A DNA stretch of 35,546 nucleotides, taken from Thermoanaerobaculia bacterium. Its GTDB lineage: Bacteria > Acidobacteriota > Thermoanaerobaculia > Multivoradales > JAHEKO01. Both the position numbers and the translations under genes were made by a program. Location of the stretch: positions 1 through 35,546 of the forward strand of contig CALZKB010000031.1 in NCBI GenBank assembly GCA_945787575.1. The letters are read 5' to 3'. Position 1 is the stretch's first letter, and each line of letters opens with the position of its first letter. The notes under the pieces were generated by a model. That model had not been told where the DNA came from and made no database searches. It saw only the letters and a program-made list of their open reading frames with translations. Positions 17,291-23,438 of this stretch are shown here, piece after piece.

Positions 17291-19585
17291 CTAGAGAGTA
17301 GGCGCGACCTCTTCCTCGACGAAGGCTTCGATTACATCGCCCGGCTTGAAGTCCTGGAAGTTATCGAGGCCGATTCCGCAGTCGAAACCGCTGCGGACCT
17401 CGCTCGCGTCGTCCTTGAAGCGCCTCAACGACGAGATCCTGCCCTCGTAGACGACGACGTTATCGCGGAGGAGTCGGGCCATGCCGGATCGGGGAATGAG
17501 TCCTTCGACGACATGACAGCCGGCGATACGACCGATCTTGGGCACCTTGAAGATCTCTCGGATCTCGGCGCGTCCCCTGCTGACTTCGCGGTAGGTCGGA
17601 TCGAGAAGCCCGGCCATCGCCTTGGTCAGCTCGTCGGTGATCTCGTAGATCACGGTATGGAGACGGACGTCGATCTCCTCTTTGTCCGCGAGCTCCGCCG
17701 CGTTGCGCTCGGGACGAACGTTGAAGCCGACGATGACCGCCTGCGAGGCTGAGGCCAGAAGGACGTCATCGGTCGTGATGCTACCGATGCCGCCGCGGAT
17801 CACTTGGATCTTCACCTGATTCGTGGAGAGCTTGGCCAGGGTGTCCTTGAGGACCTCCAGCGAGCCTTGAACATCGGCCTTGAGGACGACTGGCAGCTCC
17901 TTGATCTCGCCCTCTTGGATTCGATCGAACAGCTGCTCGAGGGAGACCTTCCCGAGCGTTTCACCGAGACTGCTCGCGCGCTCTTCCTCACGGCGGAAGT
18001 CGGCGATGCTGCGGGCCTCGGCCTCCTTGGCGACCACCTGGAAGGTATCGCCGGCGGACGGCAGGTCGTTGAAGCCCATCACTTCGATCGGAGTCGAAGG
18101 GCCGGCCTTCTTGACCCGCTCTCCGATGTCGTTGGTCATCGATCGGACCTTGCCCCAGGTCGCGCCAGCCACGAACACGTCGCCGATCGAGAGCGTGCCG
18201 TCCTGTACGAGGACGGTCGAGACGATACCTCGGCCCTGCTCTTTACGGGCCTCGACGATCGCCCCCTGGGCGGCAATCGTCGGGTTCGCTTGAAGCTCCA
18301 GCATCTCGTTGGTCAGCGAGATCATCTCGAGGAGGTCGGTGACCCCCTCGTTGTTGAGCGCCGACACCGACACGGCGACGGTCTCGCCACCCCAGTCCTC
18401 GACCAGGAGACTGTGCTCCGAGAGCTCTTTCTTGACTCGGTCCGGGTTCGCGTTGGCCTTGTCGATCTTGTTGATGGCGACGAGGATTGGCGCCTTCGCG
18501 GCCTTGGCGTGATCGATCGCCTCGATCGTCTGTGGCATCACACCGTCGTCGGCGGCGACCACCAGAACAACGATGTCGGTAACGGCTGCGCCGCGGGCAC
18601 GCATTCGCGTGAACGCCTCGTGCCCGGGAGTGTCGAGGAATACGATCTTCGAATCGTGGAATGGCACCTCGTAGGCGCCGATGTGCTGGGTGATCCCCCC
18701 AAACTCGCCTTCGGTGACCTTGGACGAGCGGATCGTGTCGAGCAGCGTCGTCTTGCCGTGGTCGACGTGGCCCATGATCGTGACGACCGGAGCGCGAGGC
18801 TCGCGGCCCTCCTCGAAGTCGTCACCGGAAAGCTCTTCTCGGAGCTGGACCTCCTCTTCGAAGGTGACCGGCATCGCCTCCGCACCGAGACTCTCCGCGA
18901 CCTCGATGGCGAGATCCTCGGCGATGACGTGGTTGACGGTGGCCATGACGCCACGATCCATCAGAATCGAGATGAGGTCCTTCGCCTTGACTCCGAGCTT
19001 CTCGGCGAAGACTCGCACCGTCATCCCTTCCGTCACCGTGATCGGAGCGTCGGGAACGCTCTCGAGCTGAATCGTGGGGCCGGTGGTCTTCCGTGCAGCG
19101 CGGCGCTGCCCCCTGGCTGACGGTTCCTCAGGCGGGCGCCGCGGAGCGGGTCGTCGAGAGGTGGGTGGGAGCTCAACGGTGCTCGGCGCCGCTGCGGTCG
19201 CCGCCGGCGCGGAGGGAGCCTCCGCCGCGGCGGCCGGTTTCGGCGCTGCCGGCTTGGGTCGCTCGGTGACTGGAATCGTCTTGATTCGCGGTTCGACCTT
19301 CTGGATGATTGCGCGCCGCCGGTTTGGCCTCACCGGTCCCGGGGGCGTCGGTCTGCCCGGCCGGCGTGGTGCGGTCGGAACGGACACTTTGCTCTCCTCG
19401 TCCCGGAGGATGACCTCGCGGGGCTGGGTGATGGTTCGACCTTCGAGAGCGGCTTGCAGGATTCCGGCGTCGATATCGGCGTCGGCGCTGTCGAGCCGAA
19501 GTCCGATCGATTTCAGTTTGAAGAGGAGGTCCTGCTCGGGAACCCCCATCTTGGTCGCCAGTTCCTTGACTTTCATCTTCGCCAT
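17291..19585 (-). CDS. infB: Translation initiation factor IF-2
   Basis: A 764-residue IF-2. The N-terminal IF2N-like domain ([22 protein letters not shown]) is followed by a Pro/Ala/Arg-rich linker (about 75-175), then a second IF2N region ([20 protein letters not shown]). The G domain has G1 GHVDHGKTT (about residue 272), G3 DTPGHEAF and G4 NKID. Domains II, III and the fMet-tRNA-binding C domain follow, ending [14 protein letters not shown]. It is the GTPase that brings initiator tRNA to the 30S subunit. ATG at 19585 follows AAGGAG. It comes 69 nt after nusA without the small YlxR/L7Ae-like genes found between them in many bacteria. Confidence 0.98.
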
Positions 19586-19654: not shown

Positions 19655-21133
19655 CTACTCTTCCTCGCTGCCGGCAGAGGCGTCTTCGCCTTCCGCCTCC
19701 TGGAAGGCTTTGCTGAGCGCGGCCATGAAGTCCGTACCGCCGAGAGCTCCCTGGTGGGCGTCAGCGCCGGCGTCGTCAGAGGCGGTTGCCGAAGTAGCAT
19801 CAGCCTTCGGAGCCGCGGCTTGTCGGGCGCTGAGATCGACCGCCCAAGCGACGATTGCCTGTGCGGTCTTGCCTCCGACCCCCTCCACCTTCTCGAGCTC
19901 TCCGGGATCGGCCTCGGTCAACGCCTCGAGGGTACCGTAGCCCTCTTCTTCGAACTTCTCGGCGAGCTTGGCACCAACGCCCGGGGCGTCGGTGAGCCGG
20001 AAGGTGACGTCCTCGGGCGCGGCGCTCTCCTCGGACATGGCGGACTGCAGCATTTCAGCGAGCGCGTCCGCAACCTCGCCCTTGACATCGGACTCGCTCT
20101 TGATGTCGATCCTGGCTCCGAGAAGCTCCGAGGCGAGGCGCACGTTGTGTCCGCGCTTGCCGATTGCCAGCGACAGCTGATCGTCCTCGACGATGACATC
20201 GAGGTGCGGCTCTTCGCCCGGATGGGTGATCGACACCCGCGTGATCCGGGCCGGTGCCAACGAGCTCTGTGCGAACGTGACGAGATCATCGGAATACTCG
20301 ATGATGTCGATCTTCTCGCCACGAAGCTCGCGGATGATCGACTGGACCCGCGAACCCTTCATGCCGACGCAAGCGCCGACCGGGTCGACGTCTCGCTCGC
20401 GGCTGAAGACGGCGACTTTAGCGCGCTCGCCGGGCGCCCGCACGGCGGCCTTGATCTGAACCGTGCCGTCGTAGATCTCGGGCACCTCCATCTCGAAAAG
20501 CTTGACGATGAGCCGCGGATCGGTGCGGGAGAGGATCACCTGAGGTCCCTTTGGCTGAGTGTGAACGTCGGCGATCACGGCGCGGATCCTCTCGCCCTGG
20601 CTGTAGCGCTCGTGCCGGGACTGTTCGCTGCGCGGCACCACGGCCTCGGTGCGGCCGAGATCGACGATGATGTCACCGCGCTCAAACCGTTTCACGGTGC
20701 CGTTGACGACCTCGCCGACCCGGTCGATGAACTCGTCGTAGACCTTTTCCCGCTCGGCCTCGCGAATCCGCTGATACAGGACCTGCTTGGCTGACTGCGC
20801 CGCGATCCTGCCGAGGCCTTCGGTCGAAACCGGGATGTGGATCTCGCTTCCGACCTCGGCTTCGGGGTCGTGGTCGCGAGCCTCCTCGACGGTCCACTCG
20901 GCCTGGGCGTCCTCGACCTCCTCGACCACCATCTTGACGATGAAGGCGGAGAAGGTGCCGTTTTCTCGGTCGAAGTCCGCGCGCACCGGCGCCTTGATCC
21001 GATGCTGTTTCTTGGCCGCCGAGGCCATTGCGTCCTCGAGCGCCGAGATCCAACGATCCAGATCGATGTCGCGTTCGCGCGCTGCCTGCTGGAGCGCCTC
21101 TTCCAAGCGGAACTCGGGTGTCTGCGTCGCCAT
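19655..21133 (-). CDS. nusA: Transcription termination/antitermination protein NusA
   Basis: A 492-residue NusA. The N-terminal RNA-polymerase-binding domain spans about 1-130, then an S1 domain (GEVVNGTVKRFERGDIIVDL). Two KH domains follow (ERDVDPVGACVGMKGSRVQS and LAIGKRGHNVRLASELLG). A helix-hairpin-helix region comes next (APGVGAKLAEKFEEEGYGTL and VEGVGGKTAQAIVAW). A Ser/Ala/Glu-rich acidic tail ends the protein. It controls pausing, intrinsic termination and rRNA antitermination. Because a terminator-like hairpin sits in the leader of this same operon, NusA could influence its own expression, as known in other bacteria. It starts 20 nt after the rimP stop. Confidence 0.98.
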   Translation of the reverse strand: MATQTPEFRLEEALQQAARERDIDLDRWISALEDAMASAAKKQHRIKAPVRADFDRENGTFSAFIVKMVVEEVEDAQAEWTVEEARDHDPEAEVGSEIHIPVSTEGLGRIAAQSAKQVLYQRIREAEREKVYDEFIDRVGEVVNGTVKRFERGDIIVDLGRTEAVVPRSEQSRHERYSQGERIRAVIADVHTQPKGPQVILSRTDPRLIVKLFEMEVPEIYDGTVQIKAAVRAPGERAKVAVFSRERDVDPVGACVGMKGSRVQSIIRELRGEKIDIIEYSDDLVTFAQSSLAPARITRVSITHPGEEPHLDVIVEDDQLSLAIGKRGHNVRLASELLGARIDIKSESDVKGEVADALAEMLQSAMSEESAAPEDVTFRLTDAPGVGAKLAEKFEEEGYGTLEALTEADPGELEKVEGVGGKTAQAIVAWAVDLSARQAAAPKADATSATASDDAGADAHQGALGGTDFMAALSKAFQEAEGEDASAGSEEE

Positions 21134-21153: not shown

Positions 21154-21618
21154 TTACGGGAACTCGGGAACGAGTCTTGCCTTTTCGATCGAACTCAAGG
21201 GAATCGCGAGCAGTTCGGCGTCGGTTCGAAGGTGGATCGTGTCCGCGCCCCCCGCGCCGCCCGCGCCGCCGGCGGAGACGTACTCCTCAAGCACTCCCCT
21301 GACCGTGCGCTTGCCTGTCGGGGGATGATAGGTGACTTTGACCACGCCTCCTTCGAATCGCTGATAGTCGCGTGCACTGTAGAGTTCACGGTCGAGGCCG
21401 GGTGAGGTCACTTCCAGGGTGTAGTGCTCCCGTCCCCAATCGACGACATCGAGGAATGCCGACACCTGCTTCGAGACGGTCTGGCAGTGGTCGATCGTGA
21501 CGCCGTCATGATGGTCGAGCACGATCCGAAGAAGGCCGCCACGGAACTCCGCATGCAAGATCTCGCAACCGCTGCTCTTCGCTATGGCCGCGAACTCGGC
21601 CGTGAGCGCTTCGTCCAA
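21154..21618 (-). CDS. rimP: Ribosome maturation factor RimP
   Basis: A 154-residue RimP. The N-terminal domain (GCEILHAEFRGGLLRIVLDH) and DVVDWGREHYTLEVTSPGLD, with SPGLDREL following, are the family signature. The C-terminal SH3-like barrel contains a short Gly/Ala insertion, SAGGAGGAGGAD, in a loop after EEYV. It helps 30S assembly in the cytoplasm. The start is a TTG (21618) with GAGGAGA about 8 nt upstream. It is the first gene of the operon, about 97 nt downstream of the predicted transcription start. Confidence 0.95.
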   Translation of the reverse strand: MDEALTAEFAAIAKSSGCEILHAEFRGGLLRIVLDHHDGVTIDHCQTVSKQVSAFLDVVDWGREHYTLEVTSPGLDRELYSARDYQRFEGGVVKVTYHPPTGKRTVRGVLEEYVSAGGAGGAGGADTIHLRTDAELLAIPLSSIEKARLVPEFP

Positions 21619-21625
21619 CCAATCG

Positions 21626-21632
21626 TCTCCTC
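21626..21632 (-). promoter_or_regulatory. Ribosome-binding site for the rimP TTG start
   Basis: GAGGAGA on the - strand, placed 7 nt before TTG 21618. It decides this start, since no ATG lies at a suitable place. Confidence 0.65.
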
Positions 21633-21644
21633 ATTGCGTTAGCC

Positions 21645-21666
21645 TTGTCGCCGTCGCCTGCGACAA
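21645..21666 (-). other. Second leader hairpin upstream of rimP
   Basis: TTGTCGC and GCGACAA (- strand) are perfectly complementary over 7 bp around an 8-nt loop. It begins at the end of the U run of the terminator-like hairpin, so it cannot easily form without using part of that U tract. This makes it a candidate partner in a structural switch. Confidence 0.4.
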
Positions 21667-21690
21667 AAAAAAGCGGGCCATGGCCCACTT
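21665..21690 (-). terminator. Intrinsic terminator in the rimP leader (candidate attenuator)
   Basis: On the - strand GTGGGCC-AT-GGCCCGC is a GC-rich self-complementary hairpin followed at once by eight T (21672-21665). This is a textbook Rho-independent terminator. It lies between the rimP promoter and the rimP start codon, so it would reduce transcription of the whole rimP-nusA-infB operon unless overridden. Enterobacterial rimP leaders are also reported as attenuators; shared descent with this one is not shown. Confidence 0.75.
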
Positions 21691-21721
21691 CATCGACGGA
21701 CAGCGATTCAGTGACCTGCGG

Positions 21722-21750
21722 ATTATAGCCGTGAAAGACGCGGATTTCAA
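21722..21750 (-). promoter_or_regulatory. Sigma70-type promoter of the rimP-nusA-infB operon
   Basis: On the - strand TTGAAA (21750-21745) is separated by exactly 17 nt from a perfect TATAAT (21727-21722). The start of transcription would be near 21715. It is the best promoter in the window and points at rimP. Confidence 0.8.
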
Positions 21751-21944
21751 GAGCGGACCGGGACTTGGGCTGAAGGCCGGCGGCGGCTGCCGGGGCGTCC
21801 TGGGGCGTCAAATTGGCACCTCGTCGCCGGTGGTGGTGGACCGGCAGGCAAGCGACGTCGGCACTACGGACTTGGCAACCAGCTTGCGTAGGATGACGAA
21901 GTACTGATGGAATCAGTGACGACCGACAGGAGACTCGAAACATC

Positions 21945-23438
21945 ATGAGCAGTCATTTCAAGAGACAGACCACCACCGCGGCGCTCGTTTTTGGGGCCGT
22001 GATCTTCGGTATGGTGTTGTCCGGGGGACTCGACTGGACGTCGACCGCCTCGTCGCAGGGCACCGGCGACCCGGTCGCACCACCCGTCGGGATCGAAACG
22101 GGCCTTCCCAACCTCGCCGACCTTGCCGAACGGGTTTCGCCGGCGGTGGTCTCCATCGACGCCAGCTCGTTCGAGACGGCCGAGGAGCGGGGCCGCAATC
22201 TGCCGTTCGAGTTCTTCATGGGCCCCCGGGGCCCGAGGGACGACGACCGCGAATTCCGGCGCGACTCCGGCGGCAGCGGATTCCTGGTGTCGGCCGATGG
22301 CTTTGTCGTCACCAACAACCACGTCATCAGGGGTGCGGAACGGCTCCGCGTGAGAGTCGGTGACCGCGAGTACGACGCCGAAGTGCGAGGCACCGATCCG
22401 GCGACCGACCTGGCTCTTCTGAAGATCGACGACGGGCACGAGTTCCAGTACCTGGCCCTTGGTGATAGCGAGCGCTTGAGGCCTGGTGACTGGGTGATGG
22501 CGATCGGCTCCCCGGCCGGCCTCGACAACTCGGTGACGGTCGGTGTCGTCAGCGCCAAGCAGCGTCGCATCGGCATCTCGAGCGAGACCACCTCGTTCGA
22601 GAACTTCATTCAGACCGACGCCGCGATCAACTTCGGTAACTCAGGCGGCCCGTTGATGAACCTCTCCGGAGAAGTGATCGGCATCAACACGGCGATCAAT
22701 TGGGGATCCGAGAACATCGGTTTCGCGGTCCCCGTCAACGTCCTCAAGACGGTTCTTCCCCAACTGCGCGACGTCGGCCGGGTCCGGCGCGGCTTCCTCG
22801 GACTCAGCGTGAACGACGTGGCTCCTGAAGCCGCGGAGGCGTTCGGTCTCGATTCGACCGACGGTGCGCTGGTGATGGGAGTCACCGAAGACATGCCGGC
22901 CGACAAGGCGGGGATCGAGGTCGGAGACATCGTGCTGAAGGTGGACGACCGTAAGATCGGCAACACCCGCGAGCTCATCGACTACGTGTCGGAGCGCGGG
23001 CCCGACGCCGAAGTCGAGCTCGAGATCCTGCGCAACGGTAAGCGCATCCGCCGCGAGGTCGTTCTCACGGAGAGGACGATCGAGGCCGAGACGCCGACCG
23101 ACGAGTCGGACGGCGAGGAGAGCGGAATCGAGTGGCTGGGGATCCGGTACCAGGATCTCGCGCCCGCGAGCCGGGCGGCACATCGAATCCCGGATGACGT
23201 CGAAGGGGTTTGGGTCACTGAAGTGTCACCCCGCAGCCCGCTGTTCGACGCCGGGGTCCGCGCCGACGACATCGTCAGCATCATCGCGAGCGTCAACGGC
23301 GAGCCGGTCTCCAGCGCCGCCGAGCTCGAGAGCATCATCGGCGAGGCTCCATCCGGGTCGCGCTTGCGTCTTTTCGTTCGCAGGTTCGCGAACGGACGCG
23401 AGGGCCAGCCGCTCTTCGCTTTCCCGAACAAACCGTAG
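21945..23438 (+). CDS. DegP/HtrA-type periplasmic serine protease (Do family)
   Basis: A 497-residue trypsin-like protease with two PDZ domains. An N-terminal hydrophobic stretch (about 11-28, AALVFGAVIFGMVLSGGL) is a signal peptide or anchor. The catalytic triad is visible: H126 in VTNNHVIRG, D155 in DPATDLALLKID, S233 in NFGNSGGPLMN. PDZ1 starts near residue 280 (GFLGLSVNDVAPEAAEAFG), with DKAGIEVGDIVLKVDD; PDZ2 is near 390-490 (WLGIRYQDLAP, GVWVTEVSPRSPLFDAGV). It degrades or refolds damaged envelope proteins. ATG at 21945 follows ACAGGAGAC. It is divergent from the rimP operon and ends in a strong terminator, so it is monocistronic. The exact subtype (DegP, DegQ or DegS) is not resolved. 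Confidence 0.95.
   Translation: MSSHFKRQTTTAALVFGAVIFGMVLSGGLDWTSTASSQGTGDPVAPPVGIETGLPNLADLAERVSPAVVSIDASSFETAEERGRNLPFEFFMGPRGPRDDDREFRRDSGGSGFLVSADGFVVTNNHVIRGAERLRVRVGDREYDAEVRGTDPATDLALLKIDDGHEFQYLALGDSERLRPGDWVMAIGSPAGLDNSVTVGVVSAKQRRIGISSETTSFENFIQTDAAINFGNSGGPLMNLSGEVIGINTAINWGSENIGFAVPVNVLKTVLPQLRDVGRVRRGFLGLSVNDVAPEAAEAFGLDSTDGALVMGVTEDMPADKAGIEVGDIVLKVDDRKIGNTRELIDYVSERGPDAEVELEILRNGKRIRREVVLTERTIEAETPTDESDGEESGIEWLGIRYQDLAPASRAAHRIPDDVEGVWVTEVSPRSPLFDAGVRADDIVSIIASVNGEPVSSAAELESIIGEAPSGSRLRLFVRRFANGREGQPLFAFPNKP

Follow-up and report, generated by a model that had tools for sequence, protein, structure and literature searches.

Does the operon encoding the ribosome maturation factor RimP, the termination factor NusA and IF-2 begin with a transcription attenuator in a Thermoanaerobaculia bacterium and, if so, is its leader the same RNA as the rimP leaders described in other bacteria or a separate invention? 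Both questions were raised by an earlier note on a stretch of DNA of 35,546 nucleotides (here called the window, at its full length), in which a near-consensus promoter is followed closely by a GC-rich hairpin with a run of U residues. As detailed below, we consider it likely that the leader is a rimP-leader transcription attenuator and that NusA is its most likely controller.

A promoter and a terminator upstream of rimP-nusA-infB

The gene order rimP, nusA, infB was confirmed by Pfam for the three open reading frames, with the leader located upstream of them. The closest named relatives of the NusA protein come from Acidobacteriota and Thermoanaerobaculia metagenome genomes. The genes and the elements of the leader are as follows.

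21154 to 21618, minus strand: rimP, ribosome maturation factor, with its TTG start at 21618-21616 (Pfam RimP_N, 2.2e-17; RimP C-terminal domain, 3e-08)
19655 to 21133, minus strand: nusA (Pfam NusA_N, S1, KH_5 and HHH)
17291 to 19585, minus strand: infB, encoding IF-2 (Pfam IF-2, IF2_N and GTP_EFTU)
21722 to 21750, minus strand: sigma-70-type promoter TTGAAA-N17-TATAAT, matching the consensus at 11/12 positions, predicted transcription start at about 21715
21745 to 21750, minus strand: -35 box TTGAAA, read from the sequence and separated from the -10 box by a 17-nt spacer
21722 to 21727, minus strand: -10 box TATAAT, read from the sequence
21670 to 21691, minus strand: terminator hairpin GAAGTGGGCCATGGCCCGCTTT, composed of GAAGTGGGC-CATG-GCCCGCTTT, with the GGGc...gCCC signature of the rimP-leader
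21665 to 21672, minus strand: U8 tract of the terminator, conserved in relatives, predicted RNA 3' end at about 21665
21626 to 21632, minus strand: Shine-Dalgarno-like GAGGAGA, read from the sequence

Thus, the promoter, the GC hairpin with its eight U residues, GAGGAGA and the TTG start were all found on the minus strand exactly where the earlier note had placed them. The G/C stem of 8-9 bp lies about 40 nt downstream of the promoter, a 26-mer comprising the hairpin folds at -11.9 kcal/mol, and the T8 (21672-21665) follows directly 3' of the stem, leaving 51 nt between the terminator and the TTG start of rimP. TTGAAA-N17-TATAAT was the sole promoter-like site in a scan of 12 kb.

To assess whether these elements could have arisen by chance, the intergenic region of 326 nt was shuffled 20,000 times with its dinucleotide composition preserved. 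These shuffles produced a promoter matching at least 11/12 positions 4 times, but never a hairpin with 8 or more base pairs and 7 or more T residues (0 in 20,000), nor the promoter jointly with the hairpin and T run (0 in 20,000). A looser scan for terminators over 12 kb returned 10 sites, with 7.3 +/- 3.1 expected, which is no excess over chance. The weight of the argument therefore rests on the conservation of the hairpin. The fold of the whole leader (115 nt) was not unusual when compared with shuffled sequences (z -0.44).

Conservation of the terminator across Acidobacteriota

The earlier note had proposed an alignment of this region across related genomes. The sample of rimP leaders combined relatives belonging to the window's order with named loci of Acidobacteriota and, in a few cases, Desulfobacterota; removal of known duplicates left 124 leaders. 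When scored by regular expression, the hairpin core and U run were present, at the same place, in 107 of these 124 leaders, and the consensus reads (A)GTGGGC-N4-GCCCAC-U6-8. Several of the 17 leaders missed by the regular expression carry variants that are visible by eye, such as GTGAGTGGGTGTTTCACTCAC in locus L010. No hairpin was found in the leaders L028, L033-L035 and L051, and L109 and L140 have a different hairpin or none; the motif is therefore not indispensable in the phylum. In most leaders of the window's family and order, the hairpin core is also preceded, at 26-44 nt, by TTGNNN-N16-18-TATAMT, and in 27 of 81 distinct cores the U run is directly followed by GTTG.

A strict pattern was matched 13 times in 72 whole genomes, with at most one match per genome and 0 matches for a reversed-pattern control; this pattern is narrow, and the copy in the window itself, where GTCG follows the U run, escapes it. 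All 13 loci with a match carry rimP, and every match lies upstream of it. With core and U run recurring phylum-wide and specific to rimP leaders, as reported for the general rimP-leader (PMC2965389), the view that this leader is a candidate attenuator of rimP-nusA-infB is strengthened.

Two alternatives must be considered here. The architecture would free a short RNA, and this RNA of about 50 nt could be a separate trans-acting small RNA while the rimP operon uses other promoters. We regard this as very unlikely, as all strict-pattern matches precede rimP and the stretch from the terminator to rimP contained no further promoter-like site in the scan. Alternatively, the terminator could have a fixed efficiency, allowing a constant low read-through and no regulation, in which case GGGC/GCCC would simply be a favourable terminator sequence. 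In line with this idea, no antiterminator that pairs with the 5' arm of the terminator was recognised by eye in the leaders, and there is no conserved leader peptide: a candidate peptide starting at ATG 21693 has 20 codons in the window, and its frame ends after 4 codons in the leaders L002 and L012. However, the stem sequence is kept phylum-wide and its strict pattern occurs nowhere else in 72 genomes, which exceeds what a generic terminator needs, and feedback by NusA is reported for E. coli and B. subtilis in the accounts cited below. A terminator of fixed efficiency is therefore an unlikely explanation. As no antiterminator was recognised by eye, a switch, if there is one, would have to work through a protein or through intrinsic efficiency.

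The second hairpin

The earlier note had also described a second hairpin that begins in the U tract, and had suggested that the terminator and this hairpin use the tract in a mutually exclusive manner.

21645 to 21666, minus strand: second hairpin, TTGTCGC (21666-21660) with GCGACAA (21651-21645), read from the sequence and overlapping the 3' arm of the outer stem P1 described below

This hairpin does exist and folds well in the window genome (-10.9 kcal/mol), but it is not conserved: of two congeners, one lacks it (L002) and the other forms 5 bp (L012), and none was found in the remaining members of the family. Its stability in this genome speaks for an RNA-only switch, in which TTGTCGC/GCGACAA would occupy the U tract and block termination. 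However, the 3' arm lies 14-20 nt past the stop point and is not made until RNA polymerase has moved beyond that point, which is too late to prevent termination, so that the hairpin cannot act as an antiterminator. Moreover, folding with P1 gives the read-through RNA greater stability (-30.6 kcal/mol, calculated for a 64-mer). We therefore consider such a switch to be extremely improbable, and the suggestion that the two hairpins compete for the U tract is not supported.

A possible outer stem in the read-through RNA

In the minimum-energy fold of the read-through RNA, a helix that we term P1 pairs UCGCUGUC with GACGGCGA and encloses the terminator.

21699 to 21706, minus strand: P1 5' arm UCGCUGUC, just downstream of the predicted transcription start and paired with 21655-21648 in the minimum-energy fold
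21648 to 21655, minus strand: P1 3' arm GACGGCGA, transcribed in the read-through RNA only, with moderate and lineage-restricted support

The same helix can be formed in the congeners L012 (CGCUGUCGG/CCGACGGCG) and L002 (CGCUGG/CCAGCG and CGGUG/CACCG). Outer stems of different sequence are possible in other members of the family and in some further families, for example GGCUUCGG/CCGAAGCC in L017, CGCCAAC/GUUGGCG in L022, GCUUGCC/GGCAGGC in L025 and GUCUGCC/GGCGGAC in L039. In the window's family, comparison with shuffled 3' sequence gave a mean z of -1.16 +/- 0.26, and native sequences folded at -17.4 kcal/mol as compared to -14.4 kcal/mol for swapped ones (sd 0.77); it should be noted that these controls are imperfect, with 3'-shifted sequence windows giving about 0 and 5'-shifted ones, which cover the promoter, giving z -0.58 +/- 0.34 in the family. 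Constrained folds yielded a mean z of -1.18 +/- 0.32 in the family and of -0.71 +/- 0.24 in the other families of the order, where the native number of outer pairs was barely above that of the controls. Pair counting was also applied to two other families, represented by five distinct arm sequences, and found two pairs with changes on both sides; the resulting score was reached by 86 of 500 shuffles and is not significant, and the arms had been picked after the pairing was seen. An outer stem as a feature of the whole phylum was rejected, as there was hardly any signal in the rest of the phylum (z -0.18 +/- 0.12). Altogether, these comparisons of sequences give moderate support for an outer stem that is real in the window's family, and partly in the order, and that does not extend to the whole phylum.

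P1 is formed in the read-through RNA only and cannot affect the choice between termination and read-through. The read-through RNA may fold its 5' end against the sequence downstream of the U run, thereby enclosing the terminator hairpin, and P1 might conceivably protect the 5' end of the mRNA. It is a tentative and rather doubtful proposition that the rimP leader of Thermoanaerobaculia-like Acidobacteriota gained a conserved outer stem that marks and protects read-through transcripts only, as a second, post-termination layer of control. If this were true, the 5' end would be sequestered and a possible site for RNase III would be created.

Other sequence features around the leader

Several further features were observed in these regions. 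In many other families of the order (among L013-L040), the predicted transcription start coincides with a CAGCTTGCC-like box. It pairs downstream in L023, L025 and L039, and does not do so in L013, L014 and L018; since pairing is found in only some leaders, the box may serve a different function, such as one in initiation. ACGTC-TAAC-GACGT, in this or a closely similar form, folds into a local hairpin in the leaders L003, L006 and L008. The 5' arm of this hairpin can alternatively pair with an AGACGT that lies beyond the U run, which may give another fold in this genus.

On the other side of the promoter lies a divergent gene.

21945 to 23438, divergent from rimP: gene for an HtrA-like protease (Pfam trypsin/PDZ)
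21805 to 21818, minus strand: imperfect copy of the palindrome GCCA-NNN-TGGC, reading TGCCAATTTGACGC

The protease gene is retained beside rimP in nearly all loci of the window's order (L001-L065), and tblastn found none in the loci from other classes. Seen from rimP, the palindrome lies beyond the promoter, towards the htrA-like gene. It was present in about three fifths of the leaders in the window's order, including those of the relatives L003, L007, L008, L011 and L041-L048, and in none of the leaders from the rest of the phylum. A pattern related to it is commoner genome-wide than a reversed control. One possibility is that the palindrome acts as an operator for the protease gene.

A probable feedback loop through NusA

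Our preferred reading, attenuation of rimP-nusA-infB with NusA as the most likely controller, involves the following steps. The strong promoter would initiate an RNA at about 21715. As judged from sequence and conservation, the GUGGGC/GCCCGC hairpin and U8 would be made within about 50 nt of this start. Part of the transcription would then stop at U8 and free a short RNA, and the fraction reading through would transcribe rimP-nusA-infB. NusA would stimulate termination at the conserved hairpin, so that a high level of NusA would lower the expression of its own operon. We infer this feedback because the motif is conserved and because there are precedents in E. coli, B. subtilis and S. agalactiae. 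Transcripts of the E. coli operon increase when termination by NusA is reduced (PMC6511841). For B. subtilis, a review (PMC12288461), in its account of Mondal et al. 2016, describes that nusA is controlled by NusA-stimulated intrinsic termination in its own leader. In S. agalactiae, two transcripts of the rimP-nusA operon share a single start: a long RNA, and a short RNA that ends 31 nt downstream, at a predicted intrinsic terminator (PMC4448216). By analogy, NusA, a termination factor, probably keeps its own synthesis in check through the leader terminator, and NusA may be the effector in the window organism as well.

These findings extend the rimP-leader attenuator densely through the Acidobacteriota; in the survey of 2010 (PMC2965389), hardly any of the attenuators predicted for this phylum had been assigned a function. 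They support the view that a feedback loop acting on the nusA operon is either of ancient origin or under recurring constraint, and the phylum-wide stem sequence makes a good test case for sequence-specific reading of a hairpin by NusA.

Comparison with known systems

The S. agalactiae leader (gbs0413-gbs0418) resembles that of the window in having a terminator within tens of nucleotides of the start of a rimP-nusA-infB operon. It differs in belonging to a Firmicute and in that its short RNA was observed by RNA-seq, whereas that of the window is predicted. The nusA leader of B. subtilis, as portrayed in the review, likewise combines an intrinsic terminator in the operon leader with NusA as the proposed effector; the NusA dependence was demonstrated there and is proposed here from the analogy, the two leaders being likened by their architecture.

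The earlier note had also suggested a search with the Rfam rimP-leader model. This gammaproteobacterial model (RF01770; 102 positions, gathering cut-off of 47 bits) had no match in the window, in the leader alone at E values of up to 10, or in 20 relatives, and 0 of 99 genomes had a match over the gathering cut-off. Weak matches of the leader to four other Rfam models (AS-pc01, Pseudomon-Rho, Bp1_162 and Bp1_781) were all far below the respective cut-offs and were rejected. Upstream of rimP, E. coli has GCCCCGATTTATCGGGG and then GGGCTTTAGGCCC in tandem, with a T run after each. The operon is thus the same, and the second E. coli terminator has GGGC...GCCC and a U run, but the window's leader is without the upstream CCCg...cGGG terminator with its antiterminator and does not match the model.

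Naville and Gautheret (2010) found the rimP-leader to be the most frequent of their predicted attenuators (PMC2965389). In its general type (Figure 2b of that paper), it is a short terminator that is found specifically in rimP-nusA-infB operons, 4-130 nt before the gene, and whose stem carries an unusual conserved GGGc...gCCC sequence, without a larger element or a visible antiterminator; direct feedback by NusA was proposed. The window's terminator shows every one of these structural features and, on its sequence, is of the same kind: GTGGGCCATGGCCCGC at 21688-21673 provides the GGGc...gCCC stem, a U stretch follows upstream of rimP-nusA-infB, and the distance of 51 nt lies within the reported range. 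With respect to the choice between the same RNA and a separate invention, signature and spacing thus place the leader with the general rimP-leader, but not with the tandem RNA of RF01770. The element is real and conserved, and it is probably a functional attenuator of an already described type. It differs from the general type of the 2010 paper, which has no larger element, in the outer stem around the terminator in some families of the order; should this stem prove real, it would add a new element to the rimP-leader.
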